From contig NZ_JAUNTJ010000005.1 in NCBI RefSeq assembly GCF_030538755.1, forward strand, positions 62,001 through 126,000: DNA of 64,000 nucleotides, in the 5' to 3' direction. The notes beneath the pieces are model-generated. The model was not told the origin of the DNA. It saw only the letters and a list, made by a program, of their open reading frames with translations, and did no database searches. Below, one piece after another: positions 26,760-46,891 of this stretch; positions within the stretch are counted from its first letter, which is position 1, and every line of letters starts with the position of its first letter. This stretch comes from Paracoccus sp. (in: a-proteobacteria) (GTDB taxonomy: Bacteria; Pseudomonadota; Alphaproteobacteria; Rhodobacterales; Rhodobacteraceae). The position numbers and the translations under genes were made by a program.

Positions 26760-26774
26760 GGAAAGACCGCCGCC

Positions 26775-27320: not shown

Positions 27321-28597
27321 TCTGGACCGTTGGCATTGCCCTGCTGGGGCTGATGGCGCTGTCGATCCCTGTCGGTATCGTCATGTTCCTGCTGGGCATC
27401 GGCGTGGCCGAGTTCTATTCCTCATTCCCGCTGCTGCGCGGGCTGGGGCAGATGGTGTGGTCGTCTTCGGCTTCGTCCACGCTGATCGCCATCCCGCTGT
27501 TCGTCCTGCTGGGCGAAGTGCTGGTTCGCGGCGGCGTGGCCGAACGCACCTATGCCGCGCTGGATAAATGGCTGTCATGGCTGCCCGGCGGGCTGATCCA
27601 TGCCAATATCGCCACCGCAACGATGTTTTCCGCCACCTCGGGATCATCGGTGGCCACCGCCGCAACCGTGGCAACCGTCGCCATGCCGCAGGCCGAGCGG
27701 CTGAACTATGACCCAAGGCTGTTTTCGGGTGCTATTGCGGCAGGTGGCACATTGGGCATCATGATCCCGCCGTCGATCAACCTGATCGTTTACGGCTTTC
27801 TGACCGAAACCTCGATCCCGCAACTGTTCCTTGCCGGGCTGATCCCCGGTCTGGCGATGGCGCTGGCCTTTGTCATCGTGACCGTGCTGCTGTGCATGGC
27901 ACGCCCGAACCTTGGCGGTCCGTCGCGCCGTTTCACCTGGACCGACCGTCTGAGCAGCCTTGCCCAATTGCTGCCGATCCTGTTCCTGTTCGCGGTGGTC
28001 ATCGGCTCGATCTATGCGGGATGGGCAACGCCCACCGAATCCGCGGCAATCGGCGTTGTGATGGCGGTGCTGATCGCGATGTTCGGCGGCGGGTTGAGCC
28101 TTGCCGCCATATCCGAAGCCCTGCAAGGCACGATCCGCATTTCAGCCATGATTATGCTGGTAATCGTCGGGGCCTATTTCCTGAACTTTGCCATGACCTC
28201 TGCCGGGCTTGGGCGGCAATTGTCGGCGCTGATCCAAGGCTCGGGGCTGACGCCGTTCGGCACGCTGCTGCTGGTGATCGCGCTGTATATCGTGCTGGGC
28301 TTTTTCATCGAAACCCTGTCACTGATGGTCGCCACGATTCCCATTGTCGTGCCGATCATGGCGGGCCTTGGCTATGACAAGGTGTGGTTCGGTATCCTGC
28401 TGATCGTGCTGATTGAAATGGCGCTGATTACCCCGCCCGTCGGTCTGAACCTGTTCGTCGTGCAAGGCGCCCGCAAGCGTGGCCCGATCAGCGACGTGAT
28501 TACGGGGGTGATCCCCTATGTGCTGGTCATGGTGCTGATGATCGCGGCGCTGATCGCGCTGCCCGGTCTGGCGCTTTGGCTGCCCTCGGCTTTCTGA
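27317..28597 (+). CDS. TRAP transporter large membrane subunit (DctM family)
   Basis: Large membrane component of 426 residues with about 12 helices, catalysing Na+-coupled transport. DctM signatures: IPLFVLLGEVLVRGGVAER, MFSATSGSSVATAATVATV, GGTLGIMIPPSINLIVYG, YAGWATPTESAAIGVV and ALITPPVGLNLFVVQG. Complete and typical in length; its start is translationally coupled to DctQ. Confidence 0.95.
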   Translation: MIWTVGIALLGLMALSIPVGIVMFLLGIGVAEFYSSFPLLRGLGQMVWSSSASSTLIAIPLFVLLGEVLVRGGVAERTYAALDKWLSWLPGGLIHANIATATMFSATSGSSVATAATVATVAMPQAERLNYDPRLFSGAIAAGGTLGIMIPPSINLIVYGFLTETSIPQLFLAGLIPGLAMALAFVIVTVLLCMARPNLGGPSRRFTWTDRLSSLAQLLPILFLFAVVIGSIYAGWATPTESAAIGVVMAVLIAMFGGGLSLAAISEALQGTIRISAMIMLVIVGAYFLNFAMTSAGLGRQLSALIQGSGLTPFGTLLLVIALYIVLGFFIETLSLMVATIPIVVPIMAGLGYDKVWFGILLIVLIEMALITPPVGLNLFVVQGARKRGPISDVITGVIPYVLVMVLMIAALIALPGLALWLPSAF

Positions 28598-28608
28598 AAG
28601 GATAACAC

Positions 28609-29277
28609 ATGCAATTCATCGTTAACGGCACGCCGCTGGCGCTTGCCCCTGCCCATCTGGTTGTCGCTGGCTGGACCGGGCGCGACGCCGCCGCCATCGC
28701 CCATCATATCGAGGAACTGGCCGCGCTTGGGGTCAAGCCGCCCTCGGTCACGCCGCTGTTCTATCGCGCCTCGGCCACGCTGCTGACCCATGATGCGCGG
28801 ATTCAGGTGGTGGGCAACGCATCCTCGGGCGAGGTCGAGCCGCTGATCGTGCAGGCAGACGGGCAGCGCTATCTGGGGCTTGGCTCGGACCATACCGACC
28901 GCGCGCTTGAGGCATATTCGGTTGCCATGTCGAAACAGGTCTGCCCCAAGCCCTGCGCCGCAGAATTATGGCCGTGGGACGAGATCAGCGACCGGCTGGA
29001 CGATATCCGGCTGGAAAGCTGGATCAAGGAAGGCGGCGAATGGGTGGCCTATCAATCCGGCACGCTGGCAGCGATCCGCCCCCTGGCCAACCTGATCGCA
29101 GGTGCTGCGCTGGATGATCTGGCGCAGGACGGCCCCGTGCTGATGATGTGCGGCACCCTTGGCGCAAAGGGCGGTGTGCGCCCTGCAACGCGGTTCCGCA
29201 TGACCATGACAGATCCGGTAACAGGACGGCAGATCAGCCATGAATACGAAACCACAGCCCTGCCGGACATCGCATGA
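28609..29277 (+). CDS. DUF2848 family protein
   Basis: Protein of 222 residues matching the DUF2848 pattern, with HIEELAALGVKPPSVTPLFY, GEVEPLIVQADGQRYLGLGSDHTDR, MSKQVCPKP and a C-terminal MMCGTLGAKGGVRPATRF-like segment. The fold resembles fumarylacetoacetate hydrolase-type proteins, but no activity is established. It overlaps the amidase start by four bases and follows DctM by 11 nt, so it very probably acts on the imported compound. Confidence 0.85.
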   Translation: MQFIVNGTPLALAPAHLVVAGWTGRDAAAIAHHIEELAALGVKPPSVTPLFYRASATLLTHDARIQVVGNASSGEVEPLIVQADGQRYLGLGSDHTDRALEAYSVAMSKQVCPKPCAAELWPWDEISDRLDDIRLESWIKEGGEWVAYQSGTLAAIRPLANLIAGAALDDLAQDGPVLMMCGTLGAKGGVRPATRFRMTMTDPVTGRQISHEYETTALPDIA

Positions 29278-30539
29278 CCCGCTTTCTTGACAAGGTTCAG
29301 GCAGCCATCACCCGCACCGAGGCTTTGCCCGCCGACACCCGCCGCAGTCTTTTCACCGAGTTTTCGCCCGAACGTATCAACGCCGAGGCTGCGCATCTGT
29401 CAGCACGCCATGATGCGGGCGAGGATATGCCCCTGTTCGGCACGCTGATTTCCGTCAAGGATCTGTTCGACGAGGCAGGACAGATCACCAGTGCCGCATC
29501 CCGACTGTTGCTGGAAAACCCGCCCGCACAAACGGATGCCGTCGCGGTTGCCCGGCTGCGCAAGGCCGGGGCGCTGATGTTCGGTCGCACCACCATGTCC
29601 GAATTTGCCTATTCCGGTGTCGGCCTGAACCCGCATTACGGCACCCCCTCCAGCGTGCTGGTGCCGGGGGTGATGCCGGGCGGTTCGACCTCGGGCGGTG
29701 CGGTGACGGTGGCGATGGGGTTGGTTGACGCGGCGATCGGCACCGACACAGGCGGCTCGCTGCGGATACCGGCGGCGGCGAACGGGTTGTGGGGAATGAA
29801 GCCCGGTCAGGGGTTGATTGACGGGGCGGGCGTGCATCCGCTGGCACCGACTTATGACACGCCCGGCCCGATTGCCCGCGATCCGGGCCTGCTGCGGCAG
29901 ATTCTGGAGATCATGGCGGATCGCCCCTTGCAGGCCGACCCGCCGCAAAAGCTGACGCTGGCCGTGCCCGAGGGCGCATTCACCGACGCCCTGACGCCCG
30001 AGGTTCACGCCCTGTTCGACGCCGAACAGGCCCGGCTTGTCCGTCTGGGCCATCGCCTTGAACCGCTCGATCTTGGCTGGCTGGGCGCGGAAATCGGGCT
30101 GAACCGCATCATCGTCTCGGTCGAGGCGCATCGGATCTATGCCGACCATCTGGACCGGCTGGCCGATCTTGGCGATCCTCGCGTGCTGGCCCGTATCCGC
30201 TTTGCCGAAACCCTGACCCAAGCGCAGATCGACGACGCCTATGCCTTGCGGGCCAAAATCGTTGAGCGATTTGACACCGCAATGACAGGCTTTGATGCGC
30301 TGCTGACACCAACCCTGATGGCGCTGCCGCCACTGATTGCCGACATCGAAAACGACTTCGACCGCCTGAACGCCGCCATGCTGCGCAACCCGTCGCTGGT
30401 CAATCTGGCTGATGGTTGTGCGATTGCCTTACCAACCCCCGGCCTGAACCCGCCCTGGTCCATGACCATGCTGGTCGGCCGCAAAGGGCAGGACGCCGCC
30501 TTGCTGGCGGCTGCGGGGCGGATTGGTTTTGTGGATTAA
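29274..30539 (+). CDS. Amidase-signature family hydrolase
   Basis: Hydrolase of 421 residues with the Ser-cisSer-Lys triad: the lysine in TLISVKDLFDEAG, the cis-serine in MPGGSTSGGAVTVA and the nucleophile in GTDTGGSLRIPAA. It acts on a carboxamide or similar C-N bond. As last gene of the LysR-DUF1445-TRAP-DUF2848 group, coupled to DUF2848 by ATGA, it suggests the imported substrate or a ring-opened product is an amide. Confidence 0.9.
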   Translation: MTRFLDKVQAAITRTEALPADTRRSLFTEFSPERINAEAAHLSARHDAGEDMPLFGTLISVKDLFDEAGQITSAASRLLLENPPAQTDAVAVARLRKAGALMFGRTTMSEFAYSGVGLNPHYGTPSSVLVPGVMPGGSTSGGAVTVAMGLVDAAIGTDTGGSLRIPAAANGLWGMKPGQGLIDGAGVHPLAPTYDTPGPIARDPGLLRQILEIMADRPLQADPPQKLTLAVPEGAFTDALTPEVHALFDAEQARLVRLGHRLEPLDLGWLGAEIGLNRIIVSVEAHRIYADHLDRLADLGDPRVLARIRFAETLTQAQIDDAYALRAKIVERFDTAMTGFDALLTPTLMALPPLIADIENDFDRLNAAMLRNPSLVNLADGCAIALPTPGLNPPWSMTMLVGRKGQDAALLAAAGRIGFVD

Positions 30540-31887: not shown

Positions 31888-32781
31888 TCAGGCTCTTTGC
31901 GGGGGCTGAACCGTAAGGAACGGGTAAACCCGTTGGAGCCTGATCCTGAATGCGCGATTTCTTGACGGGCGCTGCAAGGCAGAGCGTGATACGCGATCAA
32001 ACAGCAGGGCAATGGCAACGATGGCCAGGCCGGCGCGCAGGCCAAGGCCCATTTCCATACGCGTCAGGCCGCGCGTGACCTCGGCACCCAGCCCTCCTGC
32101 GCCGACCAGCCCGGCCAGCACCACCATTGCCAGCGACAAAAGGATACATTGGTTCAGGCCGACGACCAGCGTCGGCAAGGCAGCCGGAAATTCAATCCGG
32201 GTCAGAATCATGCTGCGCGGCGCACCGATGGCCTGCCCCAGTTCCAGCAAGTCCTTGGGCACCTGCCGAAAGGCCAGTGTGGTCAGCCGCAGCATGGGCG
32301 GGATGCCATAGACGACCGTTGCCAGCAACGCCGGCACCTGACCCAGACTGAACAGGATCACCGCCGGAATCAGATAGACCCATGGCGGCACGGTCTGCAT
32401 GATATCGAGGATCGGGCGCAGCGCCGCCTCAAGACGCGGCCGACGCGACGCCATGATCCCCAACGGCACGGCAATCACCACCGCCGCCGTGACCGCGGTA
32501 AAGACCAGCGCGACCGTCTGCATGGATTGCGACCACAGGTTCATCAGCCAGCAGAAGCCCAGGCACAAAAAGGCCAGCAACGCCGTCCGCAGGCCGGGAA
32601 GCAGGGCGACCGTGACCAGCACGATCACCACGATGGCGAGCGGATAAAGCAGCAGCGACTGAAACGCGCCGAGAACGGCCTCGACGGTGCGTCCGATGAT
32701 ATCAAACAGCCAGTGCATATTGGTATTCAGCCAGTCCACCAGGGGCGCAAGCCAAATGCCGACGGAAAACGGCACGCTCAT
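31888..32781 (-). CDS. Betaine/proline-type ABC transporter permease (second ProW-like subunit)
   Basis: Inner-membrane permease of 297 residues with six or more helices and the ProW/OpuAB EAA loop (LELGQAIGAPRSMILTRIEFP) after IMQTVPPWVYLIPAVILF. Typical of importers of quaternary amines such as glycine betaine or proline betaine. It overlaps the previous permease by four bases. The last 25 residues (basic, ending LTVQPPQRA) extend beyond the usual end and run into DNA of unknown origin, so the C-terminus may have been replaced. Confidence 0.9.
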   Translation of the reverse strand: MSVPFSVGIWLAPLVDWLNTNMHWLFDIIGRTVEAVLGAFQSLLLYPLAIVVIVLVTVALLPGLRTALLAFLCLGFCWLMNLWSQSMQTVALVFTAVTAAVVIAVPLGIMASRRPRLEAALRPILDIMQTVPPWVYLIPAVILFSLGQVPALLATVVYGIPPMLRLTTLAFRQVPKDLLELGQAIGAPRSMILTRIEFPAALPTLVVGLNQCILLSLAMVVLAGLVGAGGLGAEVTRGLTRMEMGLGLRAGLAIVAIALLFDRVSRSALQRPSRNRAFRIRLQRVYPFLTVQPPQRA

Positions 32782-33632
32782 GCGCGGCTCCTTTTCTGTT
32801 GCGCCATGCTTTGGGTCAGCCGGTCGATGACCATGGTCAGGATCACGATCGCAATGGCGGCGTCGATGGATTTGGCGATGTCCAGCGTGCGGATCGCGTC
32901 ATAGATCGTCTGCCCCAGCCCGCCAGATCCGACGATACCCGCGATGACCACCATGCCGAAAGCCATCATCAGGGTTTGGTTGATGCCGGCCATGATGCTT
33001 GGAACGGCAAAGGGCAGACGGATCTTGAAGAACATCTGGCTGCGTTTCATACCCAGAGACTGGCCCAGTTCCAGAAACTCGGCCGGGGTGCGGGAAATAC
33101 CTAGCGCCGTCAGCCGGATCGCCGGCGGCATCGCAACGATCAGCGTCGCGGCCAGTGCCGTCGCCGGACCAAAACCCAAAGGCGCGATGGCGGGCAGCAG
33201 ATAGATATAGGGCGGCATGGTCTGGATCAGGTCCAGCACCGGCTCGACAGCGCGATTGAGCCGTGGATTGAACCCGGCAAGGATGCCGATGGGCAATGCG
33301 GCCAACAGGGCCAGGCAGGTCGCGCTGAGCACCAGGGCGAATGTGCTCATGGTTTCGGACCAAAGCCCCATGGACACGCAGACCGCAAGGCCCGCCGCGA
33401 TGGCAAGCCCGGCACCGGCACCGATCAGGCGCCATCCGGCAAGGCCCAGAAGAACCATGGTGACATACCACGGCGCCCCCCCGAGTGCCCAGAATACCGC
33501 GCCGTAAGAAATCTCGAAGGCAAGCCGCAACCCGTCGAACAGGAAGGCGGCATGGTCAGTGACCCAGAACAGCGCATCATCGACGATGCGGTCGAAGTTG
33601 CTGGCGATCGTTGCGGGATTCATGCCGATCAA
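32778..33632 (-). CDS. Betaine/proline-type ABC transporter permease (ProW-like)
   Basis: Permease of 284 residues of the same type as its downstream neighbour, with LIQTMPPYIYLLPAIAPLGFG, then the coupling loop LELGQSLGMKRSQMFFKIRLP and VIAGIVGSGGLGQTIYDAI. Two different permeases probably form a heterodimer with one ATPase. ATGA overlaps link it to the ATPase gene before it and the permease gene after it. Confidence 0.92.
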   Translation of the reverse strand: MIGMNPATIASNFDRIVDDALFWVTDHAAFLFDGLRLAFEISYGAVFWALGGAPWYVTMVLLGLAGWRLIGAGAGLAIAAGLAVCVSMGLWSETMSTFALVLSATCLALLAALPIGILAGFNPRLNRAVEPVLDLIQTMPPYIYLLPAIAPLGFGPATALAATLIVAMPPAIRLTALGISRTPAEFLELGQSLGMKRSQMFFKIRLPFAVPSIMAGINQTLMMAFGMVVIAGIVGSGGLGQTIYDAIRTLDIAKSIDAAIAIVILTMVIDRLTQSMAQQKRSRA

Positions 33633-34720
33633 TGCCTCCCGGTGTCAGGGACTTGCGATCCCTTGACCCCCAGCAACAGGCTGGTCGGCGTCACCACGCC
33701 CACTGTCCCGCCCGCCTCAAGCACGGCCAGCCCGGCACCGCGGTGGCTGGTCATCAGGTCGATCAGGCCGTCGATGTCTGTTTCAGGCGAGGTGGTGGGA
33801 AGGCTCTCGATCCCGATGCCCGGATGCTCCCGCCGGAAATCGGCGGGCGGGACCATGACCGAATGCGCCTTGATCAGATGCAGCTTCGAGATGCCGGCGA
33901 CAAATTCGGCAACATAGTCGTCCACCGGGTTCAGGATCAGTTCTTCGGCGGTGCCGGTCTGGATGATAACGCCGTCTTTCATGATGGCAATGCGGTCACC
34001 GATGCGGATCGCCTCGTCCAGATCATGAGTGATAAAAATCGCAGACTTGCCCAGTTCTTTGGTCAACTGGCGGAATTCGTCCTGCAACTGCCGCCGGATC
34101 AGCGGGTCCAGCGCGGAAAACGGCTCGTCCATCAGGATGATCTCGGGGTCAGAGGTCAGCGCACGCGCCAGACCGACCCGTTGCTGCATACCGCCCGACA
34201 GTTCCGAGGGGTAACGCTCGATCCAATCGGCCAGCCCCACCTTGGTCAATGCAGCCTTGGCGGCCTGATTACGCTCGGCCTTGGGAATACCGCGCACTTC
34301 CAGACCGAAGGCGGCATTTTCCAGAACGGTGCGGTTGGGCAGCAAGGCCACGCTCTGGAAAACCATGGCGATATGCCTGGCGCGCAAGTCACGCAGGTCA
34401 GGATCGCTCATGGCACCAATGTCGTGGCCTTTGACCTTGATCTGCCCGCTGGTCGGCTCGATCAGCCGGTTCAGCATACGGACCAAGGTGGATTTGCCGC
34501 TGCCCGACAGACCCATGATGCAAAAGATTTCGCCGCGTCTGACCTGAAAGCTGGCGTCGGCCACACCGACGACACAGTTAAATTCCTGAAGAATTTCGCG
34601 CTTGCCGAGGTTGCGGCGCTGAACCGCGTCCATCGCGGCCGATGCCCGTTCGCCAAAGATCTTCCATGCCGACTGGCAGTCGAGCAGGATTTCCCCGGCA
34701 TTCATGCTCCCTGTGGTCAC
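33629..34720 (-). CDS. Betaine/proline-type ABC transporter ATP-binding protein (ProV-like)
   Basis: ATPase of 363 residues. Walker A GLSGSGKST, the Q-loop in AMVFQSVALLPNRTVLEN, signature LSGGMQQRVGLARAL, Walker B IILMDEPFSALDP and H-loop FITHDLDEA are all intact; an extended N-terminus (KIFGERASAAMDAVQRRNLG) and a C-terminal CBS-like tail are as in ProV/OpuAA. A GTG at 34720 is taken as start because GGAG lies nine bases ahead; the ATG at 34705 is possible. It belongs to the transporter that divergently faces the hydroxyproline genes. Confidence 0.93.
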   Translation of the reverse strand: MTTGSMNAGEILLDCQSAWKIFGERASAAMDAVQRRNLGKREILQEFNCVVGVADASFQVRRGEIFCIMGLSGSGKSTLVRMLNRLIEPTSGQIKVKGHDIGAMSDPDLRDLRARHIAMVFQSVALLPNRTVLENAAFGLEVRGIPKAERNQAAKAALTKVGLADWIERYPSELSGGMQQRVGLARALTSDPEIILMDEPFSALDPLIRRQLQDEFRQLTKELGKSAIFITHDLDEAIRIGDRIAIMKDGVIIQTGTAEELILNPVDDYVAEFVAGISKLHLIKAHSVMVPPADFRREHPGIGIESLPTTSPETDIDGLIDLMTSHRGAGLAVLEAGGTVGVVTPTSLLLGVKGSQVPDTGRH

Positions 34721-34749
34721 TGTCCGTTTCTCCGAGATGACAGATGGCC

Positions 34750-34775
34750 GGGCCGCCAGAGATCACCGGCGGCCC
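34750..34775 (-). other. Hairpin between binding-protein and ATPase genes
   Basis: GGGCCGCC and GGCGGCCC pair perfectly over 8 bp with a 10-nt loop in the gap after the binding-protein gene. Such structures often protect the upstream message or partly stop transcription, giving more binding protein than membrane parts. Confidence 0.5.
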
Positions 34776-34785
34776 AAGCGTGGCT

Positions 34786-35637
34786 TCAATAGCTTTTGAT
34801 GTTCGACCAGCGTTCGAGCAGCAGACCGTGGCTGTCGATCCAGGACTGGATCGCTGCATCCATGGTCTGCCCCCCTGCAACGGCCGAGTTGATGGCCGCG
34901 ATGTCGGCAATCGGCAGAAAGATCCCGGACAGGATTTCGCGCGCCTCGGGGTTGGCTTCGGAAAAGCCCCTTTGCGCGATCAGGTTATAGGACTGGGGCG
35001 GCGCGAAGACGCCCTGGGGATCAGCCAGGAACTTCATCCCGAATTGCTCGGCCATCCAGGTCGGCGTCCACAGCGTGACGACAATCGGTTCTTGCCGGTC
35101 CACCGCCGATTTCAGCGCCGCTGTCATGCCGGCGGTCGAACCCTCGACCAACTGCAATCTCAGGCCATATTTTTCGATGGCATCAGTCGTTTCACGCATC
35201 AACCCTGCGCCGGGTTCGATGCCGACGATCCTGCCGCCCAACCTGTCGGCATTGTCGTTCAGTTCTTCGAGGGAGTCGATGTCGACATAATCAGGAACCG
35301 CCAGGCCCTGATAAAGGCCATGCGACGCGACCGAAAGCTTTTCCAGCCGGTTCTTGTTCCTTTCCCAATAATCATGGGTAACAAAGTCAACCTGAGAGGC
35401 CATGACCTGCACATCGCCGCGGGTCAGCGCGGCATAGGCGATGCCCCATTCGGAAAACTCGGTCAGTTCAACCGTGTAGCCTTTGTCTTCAAGAACTTTC
35501 TTGGTCACAACCGCGATCGGCACCATGTCTTCCCAGGCCATCGTGCCCAGTTTGATCGTCTTGTCCTGCGCCTGCGCGGCAAAGGCGCCCATCCCAAGCA
35601 TGGCTGCCGCAGCAACAGCCTTTATCAGTCGTTTCAT
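34786..35637 (-). CDS. Betaine/proline-type ABC transporter substrate-binding protein (ProX/OpuAC-like)
   Basis: Periplasmic protein of 283 residues from the ATG at 35637 (MKRLIKAVAAAAMLGMGAFA), preceded by AAAGGGGAG. The OpuAC-type fold is indicated by IKLGTMAWEDMVPIAVVTKK, TELTEFSEWGIAYAALTRGD-like text and the aromatic box candidates DYWERNKNR, TLWTPTWMAEQF and the terminal W residues. Trp/Tyr boxes bind quaternary ammonium groups, which fits uptake of hydroxyproline betaine, proline betaine or similar. First gene of the transporter operon, divergent from a GntR gene. Confidence 0.9.
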   Translation of the reverse strand: MKRLIKAVAAAAMLGMGAFAAQAQDKTIKLGTMAWEDMVPIAVVTKKVLEDKGYTVELTEFSEWGIAYAALTRGDVQVMASQVDFVTHDYWERNKNRLEKLSVASHGLYQGLAVPDYVDIDSLEELNDNADRLGGRIVGIEPGAGLMRETTDAIEKYGLRLQLVEGSTAGMTAALKSAVDRQEPIVVTLWTPTWMAEQFGMKFLADPQGVFAPPQSYNLIAQRGFSEANPEAREILSGIFLPIADIAAINSAVAGGQTMDAAIQSWIDSHGLLLERWSNIKSY

Positions 35638-35758
35638 ATACACTCCCCTTTGATTGCCTGACCGGGCTTCGTTTCTGGCCCGATCCATGAAGAAACCGCG
35701 TGGCCGGACTGAGCCTTTGCTCTGCCTTCGAAGATTATATTGACACGCTATCTTTCAT

Positions 35759-35773
35759 TAGACATTCTGTCTA
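35759..35773. promoter_or_regulatory. Inverted repeat TAGACA-ttc-TGTCTA in divergent promoter
   Basis: A perfect 6+3+6 dyad between the transporter and GntR genes, just after TTGACA at 35740-35745 and overlapping TATAAA at 35772-35777. It is a strong candidate operator for the adjacent GntR protein; binding is inferred. Confidence 0.6.
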
Positions 35774-35846
35774 TAAATAATTCAAGAAGGACGATATCCG
35801 ACGAATGGCGTACAGGTTGTCTACAGGTGATAATGGAGGTCTTGTC

Positions 35847-36563
35847 ATGCCGATGCGGAAACCCGACGCAGCCGAACCCAACGTGATTAATCTTGATAAG
35901 AAACAGGTTCTTGCCCTGGAATTGCGGCGACGGATCCTGCTGATGGAAATCGCCCCCGGCGCCGTGATCGACGAACAGGAACTGGCCGATGAGTTCGGCC
36001 TTTCACGCCCCCCTGTTCGCGAACTGATGCGGCAGATGGCGGGTGAAGGCTATATCCAGCTGGAGACGAATCGCCCCGCCCGCGCCACGTCGATGAGCTA
36101 TCACGCCCTGCGCGACTTTTATCTTGTCGCACCAATGATCTACATTGCCTCGACCCGGCTGGCGGCCGAAAATGCCCGGCCTGCCGAAATCGCCACGCTG
36201 CGCCGGATCCAGCAGGAATTTCGCGCCGCGATCCTGGGGCGCGATCTGGATGCCCGTATCTTTGCCAATGACGCCTTCCATCTCGAAATCGGCAAGATTG
36301 CCCGAAACGCCTATCTGCTGCCCAGCCTGCGGCGGCTGCTGATCGACCATGCGCGGGTCGGCCGGACCTATTATCGCGACGATGTTTCCGAACGCAGCGA
36401 AATCGAGATTGCAGCCGCCCAGCACGACCAGATCATCGACGCCATCGAGCGCCGCGATCCCGAAGCTGCGGGGCGTGTCGTGCAGGCGCATCTCGAATTG
36501 TCGCGGCGCAACATGGCCGCTTACGCCGTCCCGGAGGGGATGGAGATACCCTCGACAAGTTGA
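35847..36563 (+). CDS. GntR family regulator of the hydroxyproline-betaine locus
   Basis: FadR-subfamily regulator of 238 residues from the ATG at 35847, preceded by GGAGG. The winged helix contains LELRRRILLMEIAPGAVID, EQELADEFGLSRPPVRELM, and a helical effector domain follows (NDAFHLEIGKIA, AAQHDQIIDAI). It lies 21 nt before the aldehyde dehydrogenase gene in the same direction and divergent from the betaine transporter, so it is well placed to control uptake and breakdown together. Confidence 0.9.
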   Translation: MPMRKPDAAEPNVINLDKKQVLALELRRRILLMEIAPGAVIDEQELADEFGLSRPPVRELMRQMAGEGYIQLETNRPARATSMSYHALRDFYLVAPMIYIASTRLAAENARPAEIATLRRIQQEFRAAILGRDLDARIFANDAFHLEIGKIARNAYLLPSLRRLLIDHARVGRTYYRDDVSERSEIEIAAAQHDQIIDAIERRDPEAAGRVVQAHLELSRRNMAAYAVPEGMEIPSTS

Positions 36564-36584
36564 CTTCGTCATCAGGGAGAAATC

Positions 36585-38065
36585 ATGACCGATCTGCTGA
36601 CCACCCAGGAATATCACGCCATCGCAGCCGGGCTGCACCTGCCGGCGCTGGCCTTTATCGACGGCGAATTCCGGCCCGCGCTGTCGGGCAAGACCTTCAC
36701 CACCACCAACCCGGCAACGGGCAAGCCGCTGGCCGAAATCGCCGCCTGCGCCGCCGCAGATGTCGATGTCGCCGTGGCCGCCGCCCGCACCGCCTTTGAC
36801 GACGGCCGCTGGTCGCGTCTCCATCCCGGCGAACGCAAGGCAATCCTGCTGCGCCTTGCCGCGCTGATGGAGGAAAACGCCCGCGAACTGGCGGTGCTGG
36901 AAAGCCTGGATGCCGGCAAGACCATCTATGACTGCGAAACGGTCGATGTGCCCGAAACCATCCACGTCATCCGCTGGCACGCCGAACTGATCGACAAGAT
37001 CTATGACCAGGTGTCGCCCGCGTCCGACAGTCACATCGCCATGATCCTGCGCGAGCCGGTAGGCGTGGTCGGGCTGGTGCTGCCGTGGAACTTTCCGCTG
37101 CTGATGCTGGCCTGGAAGATCGGCCCGGCACTGGCCGCTGGCTGCACTGTGGTGCTGAAACCCGCCGGAGAAACCACGCTGACCACGCTGCGGGTGGCCG
37201 AACTGGCGGCCGAAGCCGGGTTGCCGGCGGGCGTCCTGAACATCGTTACCGGTTCGGGTTCGGACGTGGGCGAGCCGCTGGGCCGGCACCCGGACGTGGA
37301 TATGGTCAGCTTTACCGGATCGACCGTGACCGGGCGGCGGTTCCTGCATTATTCCGCCGACAGCAACCTGAAAGAGGTGGTGCTGGAACTGGGCGGCAAG
37401 AACCCCTGCGTGGTGCTGGACGATGCCGAGGATCTGGACGCGGTGGCGGCCCATGTCGTCAACGGCGCCTTCTGGAACATGGGGCAGAACTGTTCCGCAG
37501 GGTCGCGGCTGATCGTGCAGCGCGGCATCAGGGACAAGCTGCTGGAAAAGGTCCGCGCCGAGGCCGCGACCTGGCTGGTGGGCGACCCGCTGGATCCCGG
37601 CACCCGCATCGGCGCACTTGTCAGCCCGGCGCATTTCGCCAAGGTCAGCAACTATCTGTCCCTGCGCAATCGGAAAACATCCTGACCGGCGGAAAGATCG
37701 TCAAGCCGGGCTTCATCGAACCGACCGTGGTTGAAACCGCCCGCGATTCCAGACTGGCGGTCGAGGAAATCTTTGGCCCGATCCTGACCGTGATCGTCGT
37801 GGACAGCTTTGACGAGGCCATCGCGGTGGCCAACGATACCGAATACGGGCTGGCCGCGTCCATCTTCAGCGCCAACGGCAAGCGGGCGCTGCGCGGGGCG
37901 CGGATGCTGCGTGCCGGCACGGTCACAGTCAACAGCTTTGGCGAAGGCGACATCACCACGCCCTTTGGCGGCTACAAGCAGTCGGGTTTCGGCGGGCGCG
38001 ACAATTCGATCCATGCCCATGACCAGTATACCCAGCTGAAAACCATCTGGCTCGACCTGAACTAA
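36585..38065 (+). pseudogene. Aldehyde dehydrogenase (probable KGSA dehydrogenase of Hyp pathway), single-base frameshift
   Basis: The first 363 or so codons read as a normal aldehyde dehydrogenase: FIDGEFRPALSGKTF, VLPWNFPLLMLAWKIGPAL, SFTGSTVTG, the active-site Glu in LELGGKNP and the nucleophile in NMGQNCSAGSR. At about 37664 the frame is lost and ends at 37685, while the neighbouring frame carries the rest (ENILTGGKIVKPGFIEPTVV, FGPILTVIV, FGGYKQSGFGG) to 38065. Adding one G after 37664 restores an uninterrupted protein of about 494 residues. In this locus it should oxidise 2-oxoglutarate semialdehyde. Either a real inactivating deletion or a sequencing error. Confidence 0.88.
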
Positions 38066-38076
38066 GGATCACCGAC

Positions 38077-38967
38077 ATGACCGATTTTGCCTTTCCCGGC
38101 CTCAACCTGGCCGTCACGACTCCTTTTGACCGGGACGGTCGCGTCGCTTTCGACCGGCTTGAGGACCATCTTGAACGCTATATCGCCGCCGGCGTGTCAG
38201 GCTTTGTGCTGAGTTCCGGCACCGGGCTGCATGCCTATCTCTCGCGCGAGGAATCCGACGAGCTGGTGGCCCGTGGCACCAGAATCATCAACGGCCGTGC
38301 CAAGGTCATCGTGCAGACCTCGGCGCTGATGATCGAGGATGTCATTGCCCGCACCCGCCACGCCGCCGGGCACGGTGCCGACGGCGTGATGCTGTTGCCG
38401 CCGTTCTTCGAAGGTCCGACCAGCGACGACGATGTTTTCGCCTTTTATGAAACCGCGTCGCAGGGCGGATTGCCGATCATCGGCTACAACGTGCCTCATG
38501 TCGTGGGCGTTGCCATCACGCCAGACCTGTTCCGCCGGCTGGCCGAGATCCCGAATTTCGTCACCATCAAGGACAGCAGCGGCGATCTGGTGCAACAGAC
38601 CGATCTGATCCGCACCGGCCTGCCGATGATGAACGGTGCCGATCCGCTGATGCCCTATGCGCTGCTGGCCGGGGTGCCGGGCCTGATCTGGGGCGGGGCG
38701 AATTTTGCGCCAAAGGCTTGCGTCGCCGTGGTCAGGGCCGCCGCGGCAGGGGACTGGAACAAGGTGCGAGAGCTGTGGCGCCCGCTCGAACCGGCGATGA
38801 ACCTGATCTGGCAGGGCGACTATGGGCAATCGGTCTATGCCGCAGCCGAGATGACCGGCTATGGCGCGGGCAACCCGCGCCGTCCGTTCAGCCCGCTTTC
38901 CGCCGAAAAGCGCGAGGTGCTGCGGGCTGCGCTTGGCGGGCTGATCGAATACGAGGCGCAATCGTGA
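38077..38967 (+). CDS. DHDPS-family protein, probable pyrroline-4-hydroxy-2-carboxylate deaminase
   Basis: Class I aldolase-fold enzyme of 296 residues. The Schiff-base lysine is in FVTIKDSSGDL and the catalytic tyrosine in IIGYNVPHVVG; the binding loop is LSSGTGLHAYLS. In hydroxyproline catabolism a DHDPS-family deaminase turns 1-pyrroline-4-hydroxy-2-carboxylate into 2-oxoglutarate semialdehyde. The flanking aldehyde dehydrogenase and FAD oxidoreductase, and the remnant of a 4-hydroxyproline epimerase just after them, support that role. No defect is visible. Its end overlaps the next gene's GTG by four bases. Confidence 0.83.
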   Translation: MTDFAFPGLNLAVTTPFDRDGRVAFDRLEDHLERYIAAGVSGFVLSSGTGLHAYLSREESDELVARGTRIINGRAKVIVQTSALMIEDVIARTRHAAGHGADGVMLLPPFFEGPTSDDDVFAFYETASQGGLPIIGYNVPHVVGVAITPDLFRRLAEIPNFVTIKDSSGDLVQQTDLIRTGLPMMNGADPLMPYALLAGVPGLIWGGANFAPKACVAVVRAAAAGDWNKVRELWRPLEPAMNLIWQGDYGQSVYAAAEMTGYGAGNPRRPFSPLSAEKREVLRAALGGLIEYEAQS

Positions 38968-40103
38968 CCGCGCACAGCATCACCGAAGGCCAACTGCCCC
39001 GGCATCCGGGCCTGTCGGGCTGGGTGGCCATGCTGCCGCCCCGCAGGCCAAATCCGGCGCTGAAACAGGCGATCACTGCGGACATCGCGGTGATCGGCGC
39101 CGGTTTCGCCGGCCTTTCGGCAGCGCGGCGGCTGGCGCAGGAAAAGGCCTGGCCGCGCGAGGTTCTGGAGATGTGCGGGCGCTACAACGTCGCCATGTCG
39201 CCCCAAGGCGATCACCACATTCTCGACTATGCCAGACAACTGGACCAACTGGGCGAGGCCTATCGCCTGCTGGACCGTTCCGAGATCGCGGATGTGACCG
39301 GCTCGCAGGCCTTCAGCTCGGCGATCTTCATGCCGGGAACCGTCATAGTGCAGCCCGCCGCCTATATCCGCAATCTGGCCGATGCCCTGACGGGCAATGT
39401 CACGCTCTATGAACAGTCACCCGCCATGACCTTCGAGCCAAATGGCGCAGGCTGGCTGGTAAAAACCCCTGTCGGCTCGGTTCAGGCGGGGCGGATCGTG
39501 CTGGCCAATAATGGCTATGCCGAGCGTTTCGGCTTTTTCCGAGGCCGGTTGCTGCACGTCTATACCTATGCCTCGATGACCGGGCCTTTCTCTCCGAACC
39601 GCCTTGGCGGGTTCCGGGACTGGGCGGCGACGCCATCCTCGCCCATGGGAACGACTCTGCGCCGCGTCTCGGGGACCGATGGCGACCGGCTGCTGGTGCG
39701 CGCACGCTATACTTACAACCCCGGCATGAATGTCGGCGAAAACACGCTGCGCCGCGCCGGACATGTGCATGACACAAAGTTCGCCCACCGCTTCCCGGAA
39801 CTGGCGGATGTAAAGATGCAATACCGCTGGGGCGGCGTGATGGCGGTGACGCTCAACAGCGTCCCGGCCTGGGGTGAGGTTGAAAAGGGCATCTTTGCCG
39901 CCTGTGGCTGCAATGGGCTGGGCGCATCGAATGCGACCGCCTCGGGCCTTGCCGCCGCAGAAGAAATCATGGGCATCCCGACCGACCTGACCCGCATCTA
40001 TCGCAACTTTCCGGCCCCGAAAAAGCTGCCCCCGCAGCCTTTTCTGACGATTGGCGCCAAGGCGACGCTGGCGATTCGCGAACACAGGGCCGGCATCGAA
40101 TAA
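38964..40103 (+). CDS. FAD-dependent amino-acid oxidoreductase with internal deletion
   Basis: DAO-family protein of 379 residues from a GTG at 38964 that overlaps the deaminase stop. The FAD Rossmann motif IAVIGAGFAGLSAARRLAQ is present. Normally the second beta strand with the ribose-binding acidic residue and the conserved G-R-N-S-G region follow; here the text passes from AQEKAWPREVLE directly to a segment that in relatives lies about 70 residues later (GRYNVAMSPQGDHHILDYAR). The rest (SSAIFMPGTVIVQPAAYI, QYRWGGVMAVTLN, GCNGLGASNATASG) is intact. It was probably the cis-4-hydroxy-D-proline or N-methyl amino acid oxidase of the pathway. The in-frame deletion should abolish FAD binding. Confidence 0.72.
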   Translation: MTAHSITEGQLPRHPGLSGWVAMLPPRRPNPALKQAITADIAVIGAGFAGLSAARRLAQEKAWPREVLEMCGRYNVAMSPQGDHHILDYARQLDQLGEAYRLLDRSEIADVTGSQAFSSAIFMPGTVIVQPAAYIRNLADALTGNVTLYEQSPAMTFEPNGAGWLVKTPVGSVQAGRIVLANNGYAERFGFFRGRLLHVYTYASMTGPFSPNRLGGFRDWAATPSSPMGTTLRRVSGTDGDRLLVRARYTYNPGMNVGENTLRRAGHVHDTKFAHRFPELADVKMQYRWGGVMAVTLNSVPAWGEVEKGIFAACGCNGLGASNATASGLAAAEEIMGIPTDLTRIYRNFPAPKKLPPQPFLTIGAKATLAIREHRAGIE

Positions 40104-40113
40104 GATCAGGGTC

Positions 40114-40533
40114 ATGCGTCACCGCTTTTTCTCTATCGACAACCACACCACCGGCAACCCACCCGGTCCGGGTCACTGCCGGTGGCCGCAGTTGCCGCAT
40201 CTGCCGATCTTCAGGCACCGCGGCCTGTTCCTGCGCGACCACGACTGGATACGCACCGCCCTGATGTTCAAGGCGCGCGGATTACCGGCCACAGCACCAT
40301 CCTGCTGGCAGGAAAGCCAGATACGTCCCGATCGCATGATTGCGTCGTCAGCACCCATGCAAGGGTGATATGGGTCGCATCCCCGCCCCCGTAACAGCGC
40401 GCAGATCGCTGGCGGTCGTGGCCGAGGTGCCGGGGCGCCTCTGGATGGCCGGGGTTCTTGTTGTGGGGTGGAGCCGGACAATCCGTTTCCGCCGGGCTAT
40501 CGCCTGAACGATATCTGGTTTTCCCGCGTCTGA
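40114..40533 (+). pseudogene. Remnant of 4-hydroxyproline 2-epimerase (proline racemase family)
   Basis: The ATG at 40114 opens a reading frame resembling the start of 4-hydroxyproline 2-epimerases: MRHRFFSIDNHTTGNP, then LFLRDHDWIRTALMF. A frame change follows (ITGHSTILL, compare the MSGSILY region), and near the end VVAEVPGRLWMAG and VEPDNPFPPGYRLNDIWF resemble the C-terminal GRAWITG...DPF...GF.L.D.W region of the family. About 200 central residues including both catalytic cysteines are absent. It sits 10 nt after the oxidoreductase gene, where the intact gene would complete the hydroxyproline pathway. Recognition is from memory of the family pattern. Confidence 0.72.
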
Positions 40534-40665
40534 GACGTCGCATCCTTGCCACGGGATCAAGGGCGCGCAGCCCGGTCGGAGATAACCTCAGGGTCAATTT
40601 TCTTCACCCATCGCACAAAAGACGGTAACGCTGCGGGGTCGGCGGCGTCTTTGATGCCGTAGATA

Positions 40666-41541
40666 TTATGAGTTCGCCACAAGCCAATCCGCAAACAAGC
40701 GGGCCTTGGCCGAGGCCCGGTCATTGATCCTCAGCGCGAAGGCCACTGGTGACGGGATGCTTTCCGGCACCAGATTGACAAGTTTGCCGTCTGCAAGGGC
40801 ACGATCCATAAGCCCTTCCCAGCCAAGCACCGCACCAACATCGTCTGCCGCCGCCTGCAAGGCGATCATGTGGTTGTTGACGAACAGGCCGCGCCCGGAT
40901 GGCGAAGGCTGCCCCAATTCGTGGAACCAGTCGGTCCAGCTGGTCCAGGAGCTTTCGTCATGGTTCATGTGGATCAGCGGCGCATGCAGCAGATCTTCAA
41001 CGCGGGTGATGCCGTGTTCCGCAGCAAAGCGCGGGGTGCCATAGGCAAGAATCCTGTCGCGGAAAATCTCTCGCGATGTGCCAATGTCTGCGGACACGGC
41101 ATAGCCGATGTGCAGATCGTGCCGGCTTGTGGCCTTGGCAACATCGGTGATGATCTGCGAAACCGTGATGCCGGGATGGGTCTTCCAGAACGCCGTGATC
41201 TTGGGCGTCAGCCATAATGCGCTGACCGCCGTGGTCGTGCGGATGGTGACGTCCACGGTGTCGCGACGGTCGCGCAATTGGCCGATGGTATCCGAGATCG
41301 TCTCGAAGCCACGTTGCAGCGCGATCAGCAGGAAGGCGCCTTTCTCGGTCAGTTCCACTCCGCGATGCCGACGGATGAACAGCGCGCAGTCCAGATCCTG
41401 CTCAAGCGCCTTGATCTGATGGCTGATGGCAGCCGGGGTGACGTTCATTTCTTGTGCAGCCGCCTTGAAGCCAGCGTTGCGCGCGGCGGCCTCAAAACAG
41501 ATCAGCGCGGTCATCGACGAAAAGTCATAGGGTCTGGGCAT
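40666..41541 (-). CDS. LysR family regulator (GcvA-like) divergent from Rieske genes
   Basis: LysR-type regulator of 291 residues of the GcvA-like branch. Helix-turn-helix: MTALICFEAAARNAGFKAAA, QEMNVTPAAISHQIKALEQD, followed by FIRRHRGVELTEKG. The effector domain shows TTAVSALWLTPKITAFWKTH and FVNNHMIALQAAADDVGAVLGW. Divergence from the Rieske oxygenase gene across 117 nt suggests it controls the demethylase pair. Confidence 0.92.
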   Translation of the reverse strand: MPRPYDFSSMTALICFEAAARNAGFKAAAQEMNVTPAAISHQIKALEQDLDCALFIRRHRGVELTEKGAFLLIALQRGFETISDTIGQLRDRRDTVDVTIRTTTAVSALWLTPKITAFWKTHPGITVSQIITDVAKATSRHDLHIGYAVSADIGTSREIFRDRILAYGTPRFAAEHGITRVEDLLHAPLIHMNHDESSWTSWTDWFHELGQPSPSGRGLFVNNHMIALQAAADDVGAVLGWEGLMDRALADGKLVNLVPESIPSPVAFALRINDRASAKARLFADWLVANS

Positions 41542-41574
41542 GATCGTCAGCCAGTTATGGATTATCTGAAATAA

Positions 41575-43958
<2,384 letters not shown>

Positions 43959-44016
43959 CGCGTTAGGGGCACACGGTCCCTGAAGCCCGCCCCCCTTCGC
44001 ATCACAGGTCCAAAAC

Positions 44017-44350
44017 ATGAAGATTGCCGGGGTCCACCTTCATGCGCTGCACCTGCCGGTCAAGAGCGGGCAGATTCGCCAGTTCGACTGGTCTGGTCCT
44101 TGCAGACCACGCTGGTCAAGATCATCGCCCGCAGCGGCTTGGCGGGCTGGGCGAGGCCTGCCCGGTCGGCCCGACCTATACGCCCAGCCATGCGCTTGGC
44201 GCCCGCGCGGCGCTGGCCGAAATGGCGCCGGGCCTGATCGGCGCGAACCCGTTGCAGCCGCCGGATGGACGGGCTGCTCTTGCAAGCACAACCACACCAA
44301 ACCCATGACCCGATGGGCAGACATTACGGGACGTCTTTGCCGGGGCCTAT
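44017..44350 (+). pseudogene. hpbD: Remnant of 4-hydroxyproline betaine 2-epimerase HpbD (enolase superfamily)
   Basis: The frame from 44017 begins [18 protein letters not shown], as in HpbD-type epimerases. From 44088 the match moves to a second frame ([19 protein letters not shown]), then to a third ([20 protein letters not shown] and [15 protein letters not shown]), and near 44265 to another (RMDGLL ... MGRHYG). At least three indels break it, and the whole catalytic barrel of this normally 370-residue protein is missing. It lies 58 nt after the reductase gene. The enzyme would epimerise trans-4-hydroxy-L-proline betaine to the cis-D form before demethylation. Confidence 0.82.
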
Positions 44351-44480: not shown

Positions 44481-45503
44481 TCAGGTCGATTGTAATCCGC
44501 CGAGAAAGCTCTCTAGATTATCACCAAGGCTGGGCTGCATATAGCCGCCCTCCTGGACACAGAGAACGGGAATACCAAGGCTGCCCAGCAACTCGGCGAT
44601 CCTTGCAAATCCCTCCGTAGTGATCTTAAGCCCTTGGAATGGATCGCCTTCATGCGCATCCAACCCAAGCGCCACCACGATGACTGACGCCCCGAAAGCA
44701 GAAACCTGTTCCAGCGCGCGATCCAGAGTGGCCATGTAAGTCGCGTCTCCGGTGCCGCGCGGCAAGATCAAGTTCAGGTTGTAACCCGTCCCGCGCCCTG
44801 TTCCACATTCCTGTGTGCCCCCCGCATAGAAGGGATAAAATTCGGCCGGATCAACATGGATGGAAACGGTCAGAACTTCGTCACTGTCATAGAAGATGCC
44901 TTGCGTCCCATTGCCGTGATGCACGTCGATATCCACAATCGCAACACGATGGCCGTGGGCATGCAGATATTCGGCAGCGATGGCGGAATTGTTCAGAAAA
45001 CAGAACCCACCCGCAACCTCTCGATAGGCATGATGGCCCGAGGGGCGCGACAGCGCATAAGCTGCGCGCTGATCTCCAAGGATCAGGTCTGCTCCGCTCA
45101 ATGCCGTCTGTGCGGACCAGTAGATCGCCTCCCAGCTATACGCCGAGATCGGGCAGGAGGTGTCGCTGTTATGGAACCCGATCTGCGCCTCAGGGTCGTA
45201 GGAATAGTGAACGGACCGATCCGGGCTGATGCGACCGGGAACGACCTCTGCCAGATCGGGAACCGTTTTGCTGCGCTGATCGAATATCCGCCTCAGGAAT
45301 GACAGATAGCGTGGCGTATGGATCGCCGCCAACGGGGCCATACCGTGATCTGTAGGTTTGGTCAGTTCCAGTCCTGCCAGCTTGACCCCGCGCAACAATT
45401 CTTCGACCCGCTCGGGCCGGTCGGGATTCAGGATGACCTTGCCGTCCGACAAACGAAACTGTGGGTCATGCAATCGCTGGCGGTCGTCAAAAATTGCCTT
45501 CAC
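44481..45503 (-). CDS. Histone-deacetylase family amidohydrolase (acetylpolyamine amidohydrolase-like)
   Basis: Zinc deacetylase of 340 residues of the arginase/HDAC fold. Active-site elements: RPSGHHAY with the two catalytic His, IVDIDVHHGNGTQ with metal-binding Asp and His, VALGLDAHEGDPF with the second metal Asp, and QEGGY with the catalytic Tyr. Bacterial relatives hydrolyse acetylated polyamines or other N-acyl amines. It is the last gene of a peptide-transporter operon and its ATG overlaps the stop of the FAD-linked dehydrogenase gene by four bases, so its substrate probably enters through that transporter. Confidence 0.92.
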   Translation of the reverse strand: MKAIFDDRQRLHDPQFRLSDGKVILNPDRPERVEELLRGVKLAGLELTKPTDHGMAPLAAIHTPRYLSFLRRIFDQRSKTVPDLAEVVPGRISPDRSVHYSYDPEAQIGFHNSDTSCPISAYSWEAIYWSAQTALSGADLILGDQRAAYALSRPSGHHAYREVAGGFCFLNNSAIAAEYLHAHGHRVAIVDIDVHHGNGTQGIFYDSDEVLTVSIHVDPAEFYPFYAGGTQECGTGRGTGYNLNLILPRGTGDATYMATLDRALEQVSAFGASVIVVALGLDAHEGDPFQGLKITTEGFARIAELLGSLGIPVLCVQEGGYMQPSLGDNLESFLGGLQST

Positions 45504-46891
45504 GCGTCCTCCGCTGGAATGGTTTTTCCCTGATTAAGAATATCTCGCGGATCAAGCGCCGCCTTTATAGCGCGCATCGTCTGAAGCGCCGCCGGATCCT
45601 TATAACGCGCCATCGGCAGCAGCTTGGACAGCCCCACGCCGTGCTCTGCCGAAAACGTTCCGTTCATCTCTATTGCCAGCGCGTCGATTTCGGCCCGCAA
45701 TTCGGTCATCAACACAACGTCATCCCTGGAAGGCCAGCAGGTATAGTGAATGTTGCCGTCGCCCAAATGCGAAACCGACAGAACCTCGCAACCGGGGTCA
45801 ATGTCCCGCAAACGAGGTTCAATCCTGTGCAGATAATCCGCCACGCCGTCGATGGGCACGGCAATATCGGTATCCAGCACCGGATGGCGTGCGAACGCGA
45901 TTTCTGCGGCAGCCTCGCGCCGTGCCCACATCTCGCGCCGCTGTGCCTCGTTCTGGGCGATAACGGCATCCGAGACCTCGTCCGCCTCCATCCGTTCAGC
46001 CAGGACTTTTTCCAGCACCTCTCTCAATCCGCCGGTATAGGTCGCAGTAAGCTCTACCAGCAGGTTTACCGGATGCGGCGCATCAAACGGTTCCCGAGCG
46101 CCGGATTTCAGCGCCAAATGGCCCTCGATGAAACTGCGGGGCATGAATTCAAAGGCGACGACCGCCCCGCCCGAGGCATCTTGAAGCAGGTTCAGCAGCG
46201 CAGGTGCAGGTTCCAGCGCAGGCATTGCGACCATCGCCGTCACACGCTCGACCGGGCGGGGATATAGCTTCATCACAGCAGCGGTGATGATGCCCAATTG
46301 CCCTTCGGCCCCAATCAGCAGGTTACGCAGATCAAAGCCGGAATTATTCTTGTGCAGCGCCTGCATCAGATCCAGTATCTGCCCGTCAGGCAAAACCGCC
46401 TCAAGCCCAAGGCACAGGTCACGGGTGTTGCCATAGCGCAGGACATTCGCGCCCCCGGCATTGGTAGACAAGACCCCGCCGATCATCGCCGAGCCGCTGG
46501 CACCAAACGCCAGCGGAAAGATCAGCCCATGTTCCTCGGCAGCAGCGTTCAGGCTGTCGACAATTACCCCGGCCTCGACCACCGCCATGCGGGCGTTCGG
46601 GCGGATTTCACGGATGCGGTTCAACCGGGCCAGCGAAATGACAATGGCCCCCGTCCCCAAAGCGCCGCCGTTCAGCCCGGTGTTCCCCGAAACCGGCACA
46701 ACCGGCAGGTTACGATCATTCGCCAGCCGCAGCAGCGCCGCGACCTGATCGCGATCAGCGGGACGCACAACCGCCAGCGGCTTGCCTTGATACTGCCCGG
46801 TCCAGTCGCGATCCCAAGGGGCGGTATCGGCGCCGGTCAGCACATGCGACGCACCAACGATCGCAGCCAGTGACTGGATCAGGTCACTCAT
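45500..46891 (-). CDS. FAD-linked oxidase, D-2-hydroxyacid dehydrogenase type (GlcD/D2HGDH-like)
   Basis: Flavoenzyme of 463 residues of the VAO family. The PP-loop and FAD region read PVVPVSGNTGLNGGALG, FGASGSAMIGGVLSTNAGG and RYGNTRDLCLGLEAVLPDG; metal/substrate His residues appear in HLGDGNIHY and FSAEHGVGLSK, as in D-lactate and D-2-hydroxyglutarate dehydrogenases. It oxidises a 2-hydroxyacid to a 2-oxoacid. Four-base overlaps on both sides couple it to the ABC ATPase and the deacetylase genes. Confidence 0.92.
   Translation of the reverse strand: MSDLIQSLAAIVGASHVLTGADTAPWDRDWTGQYQGKPLAVVRPADRDQVAALLRLANDRNLPVVPVSGNTGLNGGALGTGAIVISLARLNRIREIRPNARMAVVEAGVIVDSLNAAAEEHGLIFPLAFGASGSAMIGGVLSTNAGGANVLRYGNTRDLCLGLEAVLPDGQILDLMQALHKNNSGFDLRNLLIGAEGQLGIITAAVMKLYPRPVERVTAMVAMPALEPAPALLNLLQDASGGAVVAFEFMPRSFIEGHLALKSGAREPFDAPHPVNLLVELTATYTGGLREVLEKVLAERMEADEVSDAVIAQNEAQRREMWARREAAAEIAFARHPVLDTDIAVPIDGVADYLHRIEPRLRDIDPGCEVLSVSHLGDGNIHYTCWPSRDDVVLMTELRAEIDALAIEMNGTFSAEHGVGLSKLLPMARYKDPAALQTMRAIKAALDPRDILNQGKTIPAEDA

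Follow-up and report, generated by a model that had tools for sequence, protein, structure and literature searches.

A partly decayed two-module hydroxyproline and betaine catabolic island in a Paracoccus species, with a predicted proline-betaine route starting from its open half

The hydroxyproline betaine (HpbD) pathway is said to have been described in Pelagibaca bermudensis and Paracoccus denitrificans by Zhao et al. in 2013 and Kumar et al. in 2014, both of which PMC4113996 cites. The PDB entries 3vca, 3vcp and 4qup hold what we take to be Stc2, the stachydrine demethylase. PMC7948474 places Stc2 among the group Vb demethylases, with proline betaine as its substrate. Here we describe a locus related to both systems, at positions 31888 to 44350 of a 64,000-nucleotide stretch of Paracoccus sp. 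DNA (the window, G000:C30:62001-126000), taken from a 3.0 Mb assembly in 50 contigs that is 86.8% complete. We propose, with a probability of roughly 0.7, that the locus is a two-module catabolic island whose hydroxyproline (Hyp) module is broken and in which betaine uptake and proline-betaine demethylation are retained. The island would be one copy of a type orthologous to that on the P. versutus megaplasmids pTAV4 and pBEN. Its first module, a betaine-type ATP-binding cassette (ABC) transporter, GntR, HypF with a second proline-racemase-family protein (PRS2), HypO, HypD and HypH, would have led from hydroxyproline to 2-oxoglutarate; its second comprises LysR, a Stc2-type Rieske demethylase, a reductase and then HpbD. 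At present the transporter would import proline-type betaines and the Rieske enzyme would convert stachydrine to N-methylproline, which HpbA (on contig C24) would take to proline, for PutA (on C30) to use.

The locus, its lesions and its intact counterpart

The locus proteins were profiled against NCBIfam, and damaged genes were sought by tblastn with intact proteins of relatives; the lesions were read against the locus on pTAV4/pBEN (L160, L161) and its near-copy in genome G171 (L068). The order is ABC transporter (31888-35688, minus strand), GntR, hypH, hypD, hypO, hypF remnant, PRS2 remnant, LysR (minus strand), Rieske oxygenase, reductase and hpbD remnant, as follows.

31888..32781, minus: betaine/choline-type ABC permease, open; TIGR03416 8e-78, under cut-off; 90% amino-acid identity to the P. 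versutus-type protein
32778..33632, minus: second ABC permease, open; TIGR03416 3e-67, under cut-off; 93% identity to the P. versutus type
33629..34720, minus: ABC ATPase, open; TIGR01186 proV 350 bits, above the cut-off of 326.6; 90% identity
34786..35688, minus: betaine-type substrate-binding protein, open; TIGR03414 4e-28, under cut-off; PDB glycine-betaine-binding proteins from 5e-37
35853..36563, plus: GntR regulator, open; 147 bp upstream 84-86% identical to the P. versutus type
36585..38065, plus: pseudogene of hypH (KGSA-type aldehyde dehydrogenase), with a gap of one base near 37657
38077..38967, plus: hypD, open; a DHDPS-family protein and presumed deaminase, 91% identical to the P. 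versutus type
38964..40103, plus: pseudogene of hypO (FAD oxidase); 198 bp deleted in frame at 39131/39132
40114..40310, plus: hypF remnant (4-hydroxyproline-epimerase-like, of the Cys/Gly clade treated below); codons 1-56, C-terminal scrap at 40275-40304
40378..40524, plus: PRS2 remnant, last approximately 50 residues; E 3e-7 to the G034 protein, 44% across its residues 295-346
40666..41541, minus: LysR regulator, open; P. versutus counterpart cut off after residue 137
41656..42894, plus: Rieske oxygenase of the stachydrine-demethylase (Stc2) type, open; 722 bits to PDB 4qup/3vca, residues 2-412
42891..43958, plus: GbcB-type flavin/2Fe-2S reductase, open; 89% identity to P. versutus; 2Fe-2S motif present
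44017..44335, plus: remnant of hpbD (4-hydroxyproline betaine 2-epimerase); codons 1-117 of 369, with six indels that break the frame

Every part named in a preliminary description of the locus is present and falls in the family given there. Its statement that uptake, regulators, deaminase and demethylase look intact is borne out by the open frames of both permeases, the ATPase, the binding protein, GntR, the DHDPS-family protein, LysR and the Rieske oxygenase, to which the reductase is added; and the damage that it reported in two epimerases, the oxidase and the dehydrogenase is real when set against the P. versutus-type locus. The one-base gap in hypH leaves two frames, the first covering 366 of the 493 amino acids. 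The deletion in hypO is flanked by near-identical 9-bp repeats, CTGGCACAG and CTGGCGCAG, and presumably lies just behind the N-terminal FAD-binding glycine motif. The codons that remain at the start of hypF show 67.9% identity to the P. versutus type and carry two 4-bp indels; approximately 770 bp have been lost between codon 56 and the C-terminal scrap, which is 30 bp long. None of the six indels in hpbD is a multiple of three, and codons 118-369 are gone. In tblastn the damaged genes gave E values of 0 (hypO), 0 (hypH), 2e-18 (hypF), 4e-17 (hpbD) and, without composition correction, the above-mentioned 3e-7 (PRS2); the hypF remnant reaches the Pfam model at only 8.7e-4, under its cut-off. 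The locus holds an HpbD remnant alone, 88% identical over 41 amino acids to P. pantotrophus HpbD, a query annotated hpbD that itself gives 806 bits to PDB 4e8g/4izg/4j1o, and by these matches the family assignment is secure. PRS2, which sits after hypF in the relatives G034:C54 and G058:C220, adds one to the two epimerases named earlier, so that on these matches three epimerase-family genes are broken.

That some or all of these lesions are assembly errors in a locus that works is highly improbable. The hypH lesion is of one base, in an incomplete genome of 50 contigs, and it alone is of a size at which a simple base-call error could be conceived; a 198-bp deletion at 9-bp repeats and a deletion of approximately 770 bp are no base-call errors, and the six separate indels of hpbD are accompanied by a raised non-synonymous rate. 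We reject assembly error for every lesion except that of hypH.

The intact state of the Hyp module can be seen in the nearest DNA in the plasmid collection, that of pTAV4 and pBEN, which covers 86% of the query at 86% identity. Gene order, the run from the transporter through GntR to hypH, hypD, hypO and hypF, and the Rieske-reductase pair are common to both loci. On the megaplasmids every gene from the transporter through hypF is intact, LysR stops after residue 137 of 291 and is followed by approximately 4.5 kb of unrelated DNA (L160/L161, about 13.5-18.1 kb), whose open frames look IS66-like and recombinase-like by eye, and fdhA lies directly behind the reductase with no hpbD between them; the window, by contrast, has a broken Hyp run and an open LysR. 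The G171 stretch on contig C58 is 98% identical to pBEN. Contig G171:C59 (L173:1-1390) starts with the end of the reductase and passes directly to hpbD, which is intact there and shares 94% identity with the query, and the remnant in the window therefore occupies the hpbD position of relatives. The two-module island thus erodes differently by lineage, with the Hyp module broken and the regulated demethylase kept here and the reverse in P. versutus.

Timing of the decay and function of the open genes

The ratio of non-synonymous to synonymous rates (dN/dS) on the window branch was estimated from three-point NG86 distances. It lies at 0.11-0.16 in eight open genes (for hypD, dN is.035 and dS.273) and at 0.14 for hypO and 0.14 for hypH; LysR gives 0.24, though the broken P. 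versutus copy spoils that comparison. The hypF remnant reaches about 0.48 (53 codons) and the hpbD remnant 0.87 or 1.26 by choice of the third sequence (101 codons), and both hold non-synonymous changes above those that a rate of 0.14 predicts. Since the ratio is raised in this pair and 0.14 in hypO and hypH, hpbD and hypF were probably the first to die, with hypO and hypH following recently. The broken hypO and hypH are still at 0.14, and open frames alone are therefore no proof that the other genes are used.

This caution bears on the possibility that the whole island is dying, its open genes merely not yet hit and none of them functional now, which we consider unlikely. Of the five broken genes, two were hit recently according to the rate test; LysR is truncated in P. 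versutus; and the LysR-Rieske-reductase-hpbD unit is eroded in relatives. Among the other 17 genomes of the genus that carry the Rieske gene (at least 72% identical), all of which were mapped, the reductase is broken or did not turn up within 6 kb of that gene in five (G056, G057, G131, G156, G172), which makes 5/18 when the window, with its open reductase, is counted in; a split or truncated reductase stands beside an open Rieske gene in L177 (G172), L174 (G156) and L032 (G056), LysR is split in G172, and a scrap of hpbD lies between reductase and fdhA in G052 (L028:8121-8265). Erosion of this unit is recurrent across the genus. Against a wholly dying island stand the eight open genes at 0.11-0.16, though most of the branch may predate the decay, and the complete proline-betaine route that can be drawn through open genes.

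That route begins with the Rieske enzyme, which aligns with PDB 4qup/3vca over its full length, carries the Rieske and mononuclear iron-ligand motifs and falls under the cut-off of the GbcA model NF058607; the P. versutus reductase protein matches NF058606, likewise under its cut-off. By full-length similarity and motifs the Rieske enzyme is of the Stc2 type, and demethylation of proline betaine is predicted for it. HpbA is encoded outside the locus, on C24, as an open frame of 678 amino acids with 89% identity to P. pantotrophus HpbA, and a PutA-type proline dehydrogenase is open on C30. With the Rieske gene intact and HpbA and PutA open, the prediction is that the strain can still grow on proline betaine, and proline-betaine breakdown from the Rieske enzyme through HpbA to PutA would be the simplest present function of the retained half. 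A second Rieske gene, 58% identical, lies on C27. Among the best 80 named Rieske loci (more than 80 exist), an HpbA-like gene lies in the flanks (within 10 kb) of 22 and HpbD in those of 3. Across 125 genomes of the genus, HpbD was matched at E 1e-60 or better in 16, of which one, only 35% identical, was dropped to leave 15 (at least 59% identical). Counting our own, 18 genomes have a Rieske gene at 72% identity or more; 11 of them have HpbD of at least 59% identity somewhere and 7 do not, so that six other genomes of the genus have the orthologous Rieske gene and no HpbD. It is thus also common for this Rieske gene to occur without HpbD.

The preliminary description had matched the locus to the hydroxyproline-betaine pathway, which holds for gene identity and resemblance; the HpbD at the locus is a remnant, and the Rieske enzyme is Stc2-like. 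It had further suggested that growth on the betaine is lost while uptake and demethylation remain, for example for use of the betaine as an osmolyte. Growth may plausibly have been lost on hydroxyproline betaine via HpbD, and on that alone. Retention for osmolyte use is quite unlikely: the betaine-type transporter is indeed open and constrained and hpbD is gone, but a cell with an intact demethylase would break the osmolyte down, the downstream HpbA and PutA are open, and paralogous catabolic genes are present on C25. We have rejected it as the leading reading on account of the open demethylase and downstream steps.

A general loss of hydroxyproline use finds no support either, in view of genes elsewhere in the genome. 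Contig C25 carries an open paralogous cluster of betaine-type transporter, LysR, FAD oxidase (42% identical to P. versutus HypO), aldehyde dehydrogenase (82% to HypH) and DHDPS-family protein. Of the HypO/HypD/HypH set, HypD is open and HypO and HypH are broken at the locus; with oxidase and dehydrogenase paralogues open on C25, hydroxyproline oxidation may still proceed via that cluster. On C24, HpbA is followed by a full-length racemase-family protein of 350 amino acids with a Ser/Cys pair, a pair reported for one 4HypE in PMC4113996. In two relatives, L071 (G034:C54) and L072 (G163:C97), HypD/HypO-type and C25-type DHDPS/FAD-oxidase pairs share one cluster and a single matched aldehyde dehydrogenase. 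The tblastn searches of window and genome with HpbD, the epimerase and the oxidase matched the remnants to the families first named for them. The 86.8% complete assembly yielded no further HpbD (the closest match is 35% identical, partial, and in a 386-amino-acid frame on C25), nor another P. versutus-type HypF (the best is the racemase-family protein on C24, 35% identical); the Pfam racemase model also reaches a 352-amino-acid frame on C19, under its cut-off.

Several points weigh against a broken Hyp module beside a working proline-betaine half. The substrates of transporter and Rieske enzyme are drawn from relatives, and HpbD occurs in 11/18 genomes with this Rieske gene and in 4/107 without it, an association above chance that keeps open a role of the Rieske enzyme in hydroxyproline-betaine use. 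HypD is open and constrained despite its broken partners, which would require that the partners broke very recently or that HypD serves the C25 pathway. The rate estimates for hypF and hpbD rest on just 53 and 101 codons, the hypH lesion could be an assembly error, and at this completeness of the assembly the absence of intact hpbD and hypF is provisional. As a decayed locus the island is of modest interest; the part worth testing is the Cys/Gly clade that it once carried.

The Cys/Gly clade of the proline-racemase family

P. versutus HypF gives 547 bits to NF010578 (4-hydroxyproline epimerase), above the cut-off of 376, and is by homology a member of that family. The 16 Paracoccus HypF proteins at least 70% identical to it all read DRSPGG at the second catalytic motif, and the other 46 (55-60% identical) all read DRSPCG; the first motif in the 16 is MCGA in 15 and MCDA in L193. 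Within 9 kb, 13/16 of the former loci have a betaine-type transporter gene vs 0/46 of the latter, with some stretches ending at contig ends. The three members lacking it within that distance are L182, with only an oxidase remnant beside hypF, L194, and L198 (G131:C1), a decayed member whose Cys/Gly hypF holds two in-frame TGA codons. Members in Rhizobium etli, R. leguminosarum, A. vitis and S. fredii have both DRSPGG and the transporter in 4/4; the loci of S. meliloti pSymB, PD1222 and four other plasmids have DRSPCG and no betaine-type transporter, and the best 30 class-level loci (from 61 matching genomes among 385 searched) all have DRSPCG. In total, the second catalytic Cys is Gly in 20/20 clade members (L161:12460-13461 and 19 further loci) vs Cys in 82/82 relatives, and the transporter stands beside 17/20 of the clade genes. 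Ala replaces the His of MCGH in 19/19 aligned members, and no intact member has both catalytic Cys residues. A tree of 74 rows unites the 20 Gly sequences in a single group at 100/100 support, and the link between dyad and transporter therefore counts as one evolutionary event, not 20. Differences fixed in the clade, computed without the row of L198 with its internal stops, are, in P. versutus numbering, A for H 91, V for I 174, C for T 227, G for C 253 and I for mostly V 332. The window hypF remnant has lost the catalytic positions, and the dyad is readable in intact clade members only; its N-terminus gives at least 62.4 bits with every sequence of the clade and at most 54.7 with any other.

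We thus have a conserved clade, 4-hydroxyproline epimerase by NCBIfam name, without a residue described as needed for that reaction. PMC1964878 reports that mutation of a catalytic Cys (of the MCGH and DRSPCG motifs) abolishes hydroxyproline epimerase activity, and suggests another role for proteins without the key Cys. PMC4364671, in the part available, lists Cys-Cys, Cys-Thr, Ser-Cys and Ser-Thr types, Cys-Gly not being among them, and has residues of the catalytic motifs bond to the carboxylate or ring nitrogen. PMC4113996 describes superfamily clusters without one or both Cys, and one non-Cys-Cys enzyme that still epimerises hydroxyproline, which weighs against over-reading the Gly of the clade. 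No mention of a Cys/Gly pair was found in the available portions of PMC1964878, PMC4364671, PMC4113996 and PMC8142540, and the clade may be present unseen in the figures of PMC4113996.

We tentatively suggest, as a possibility that we ourselves doubt, that the clade enzyme is not a 4-hydroxyproline epimerase and acts on hydroxyproline betaine, either as a second, unrelated solution to the HpbD reaction or by a different reaction. Joint loss of the second Cys and the MCGH His would make room for an N,N-dimethylated ring; on this hypothesis, their loss beside a betaine-type transporter is what would be expected if the ring nitrogen carries methyl groups. Were this so, the locus in the window would have lost two betaine epimerases unrelated to each other, a number of annotations in Rhizobium and Paracoccus would be wrong, and a new activity could be assayed directly. 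Mutual replacement of HpbD and the Cys/Gly HypF between genomes was tested and found no support: of the 125 genomes, 15 carry the clade, 15 carry HpbD of at least 59% identity and 6 both, a co-occurrence above chance (p 0.003, only a guide as the genomes are related).

As to the surroundings of the locus, a TRAP transporter (DctP 25722-26759, DctM 27317-28597) and then an amidase lie upstream (window 25722-30539), and a histone-deacetylase-family protein and a FAD-linked oxidase, both near full-length Pfam matches, adjoin the hpbD remnant on the other strand (window 44481-46891).

Comparison with described systems

With the HpbD pathway of P. bermudensis and P. denitrificans the window shares an HpbD remnant, the Rieske/reductase pair, HypO, HypD, HypH and the betaine-type transporter; it differs in that HpbD, HypF, HypO and HypH are broken and HpbA is on another contig. 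With Stc2 the likeness is that of the Rieske enzyme, a match over its full length at 722 bits with Rieske and iron-ligand motifs. Clusters in rhizobia (R. etli p42f, R. leguminosarum pRltTA1D, A. vitis and S. fredii), in the examined stretches of which no HpbD was seen, share GntR, DHDPS, aldehyde dehydrogenase and FAD oxidase with this type of island, as well as the betaine-type transporter and the Cys/Gly HypF. The clusters of R. etli and R. leguminosarum also adjoin a Rieske gene, a reductase and LysR; the rhizobial DHDPS and oxidase are, however, nearer the C25 type, and the Rieske protein is only about 40% identical.

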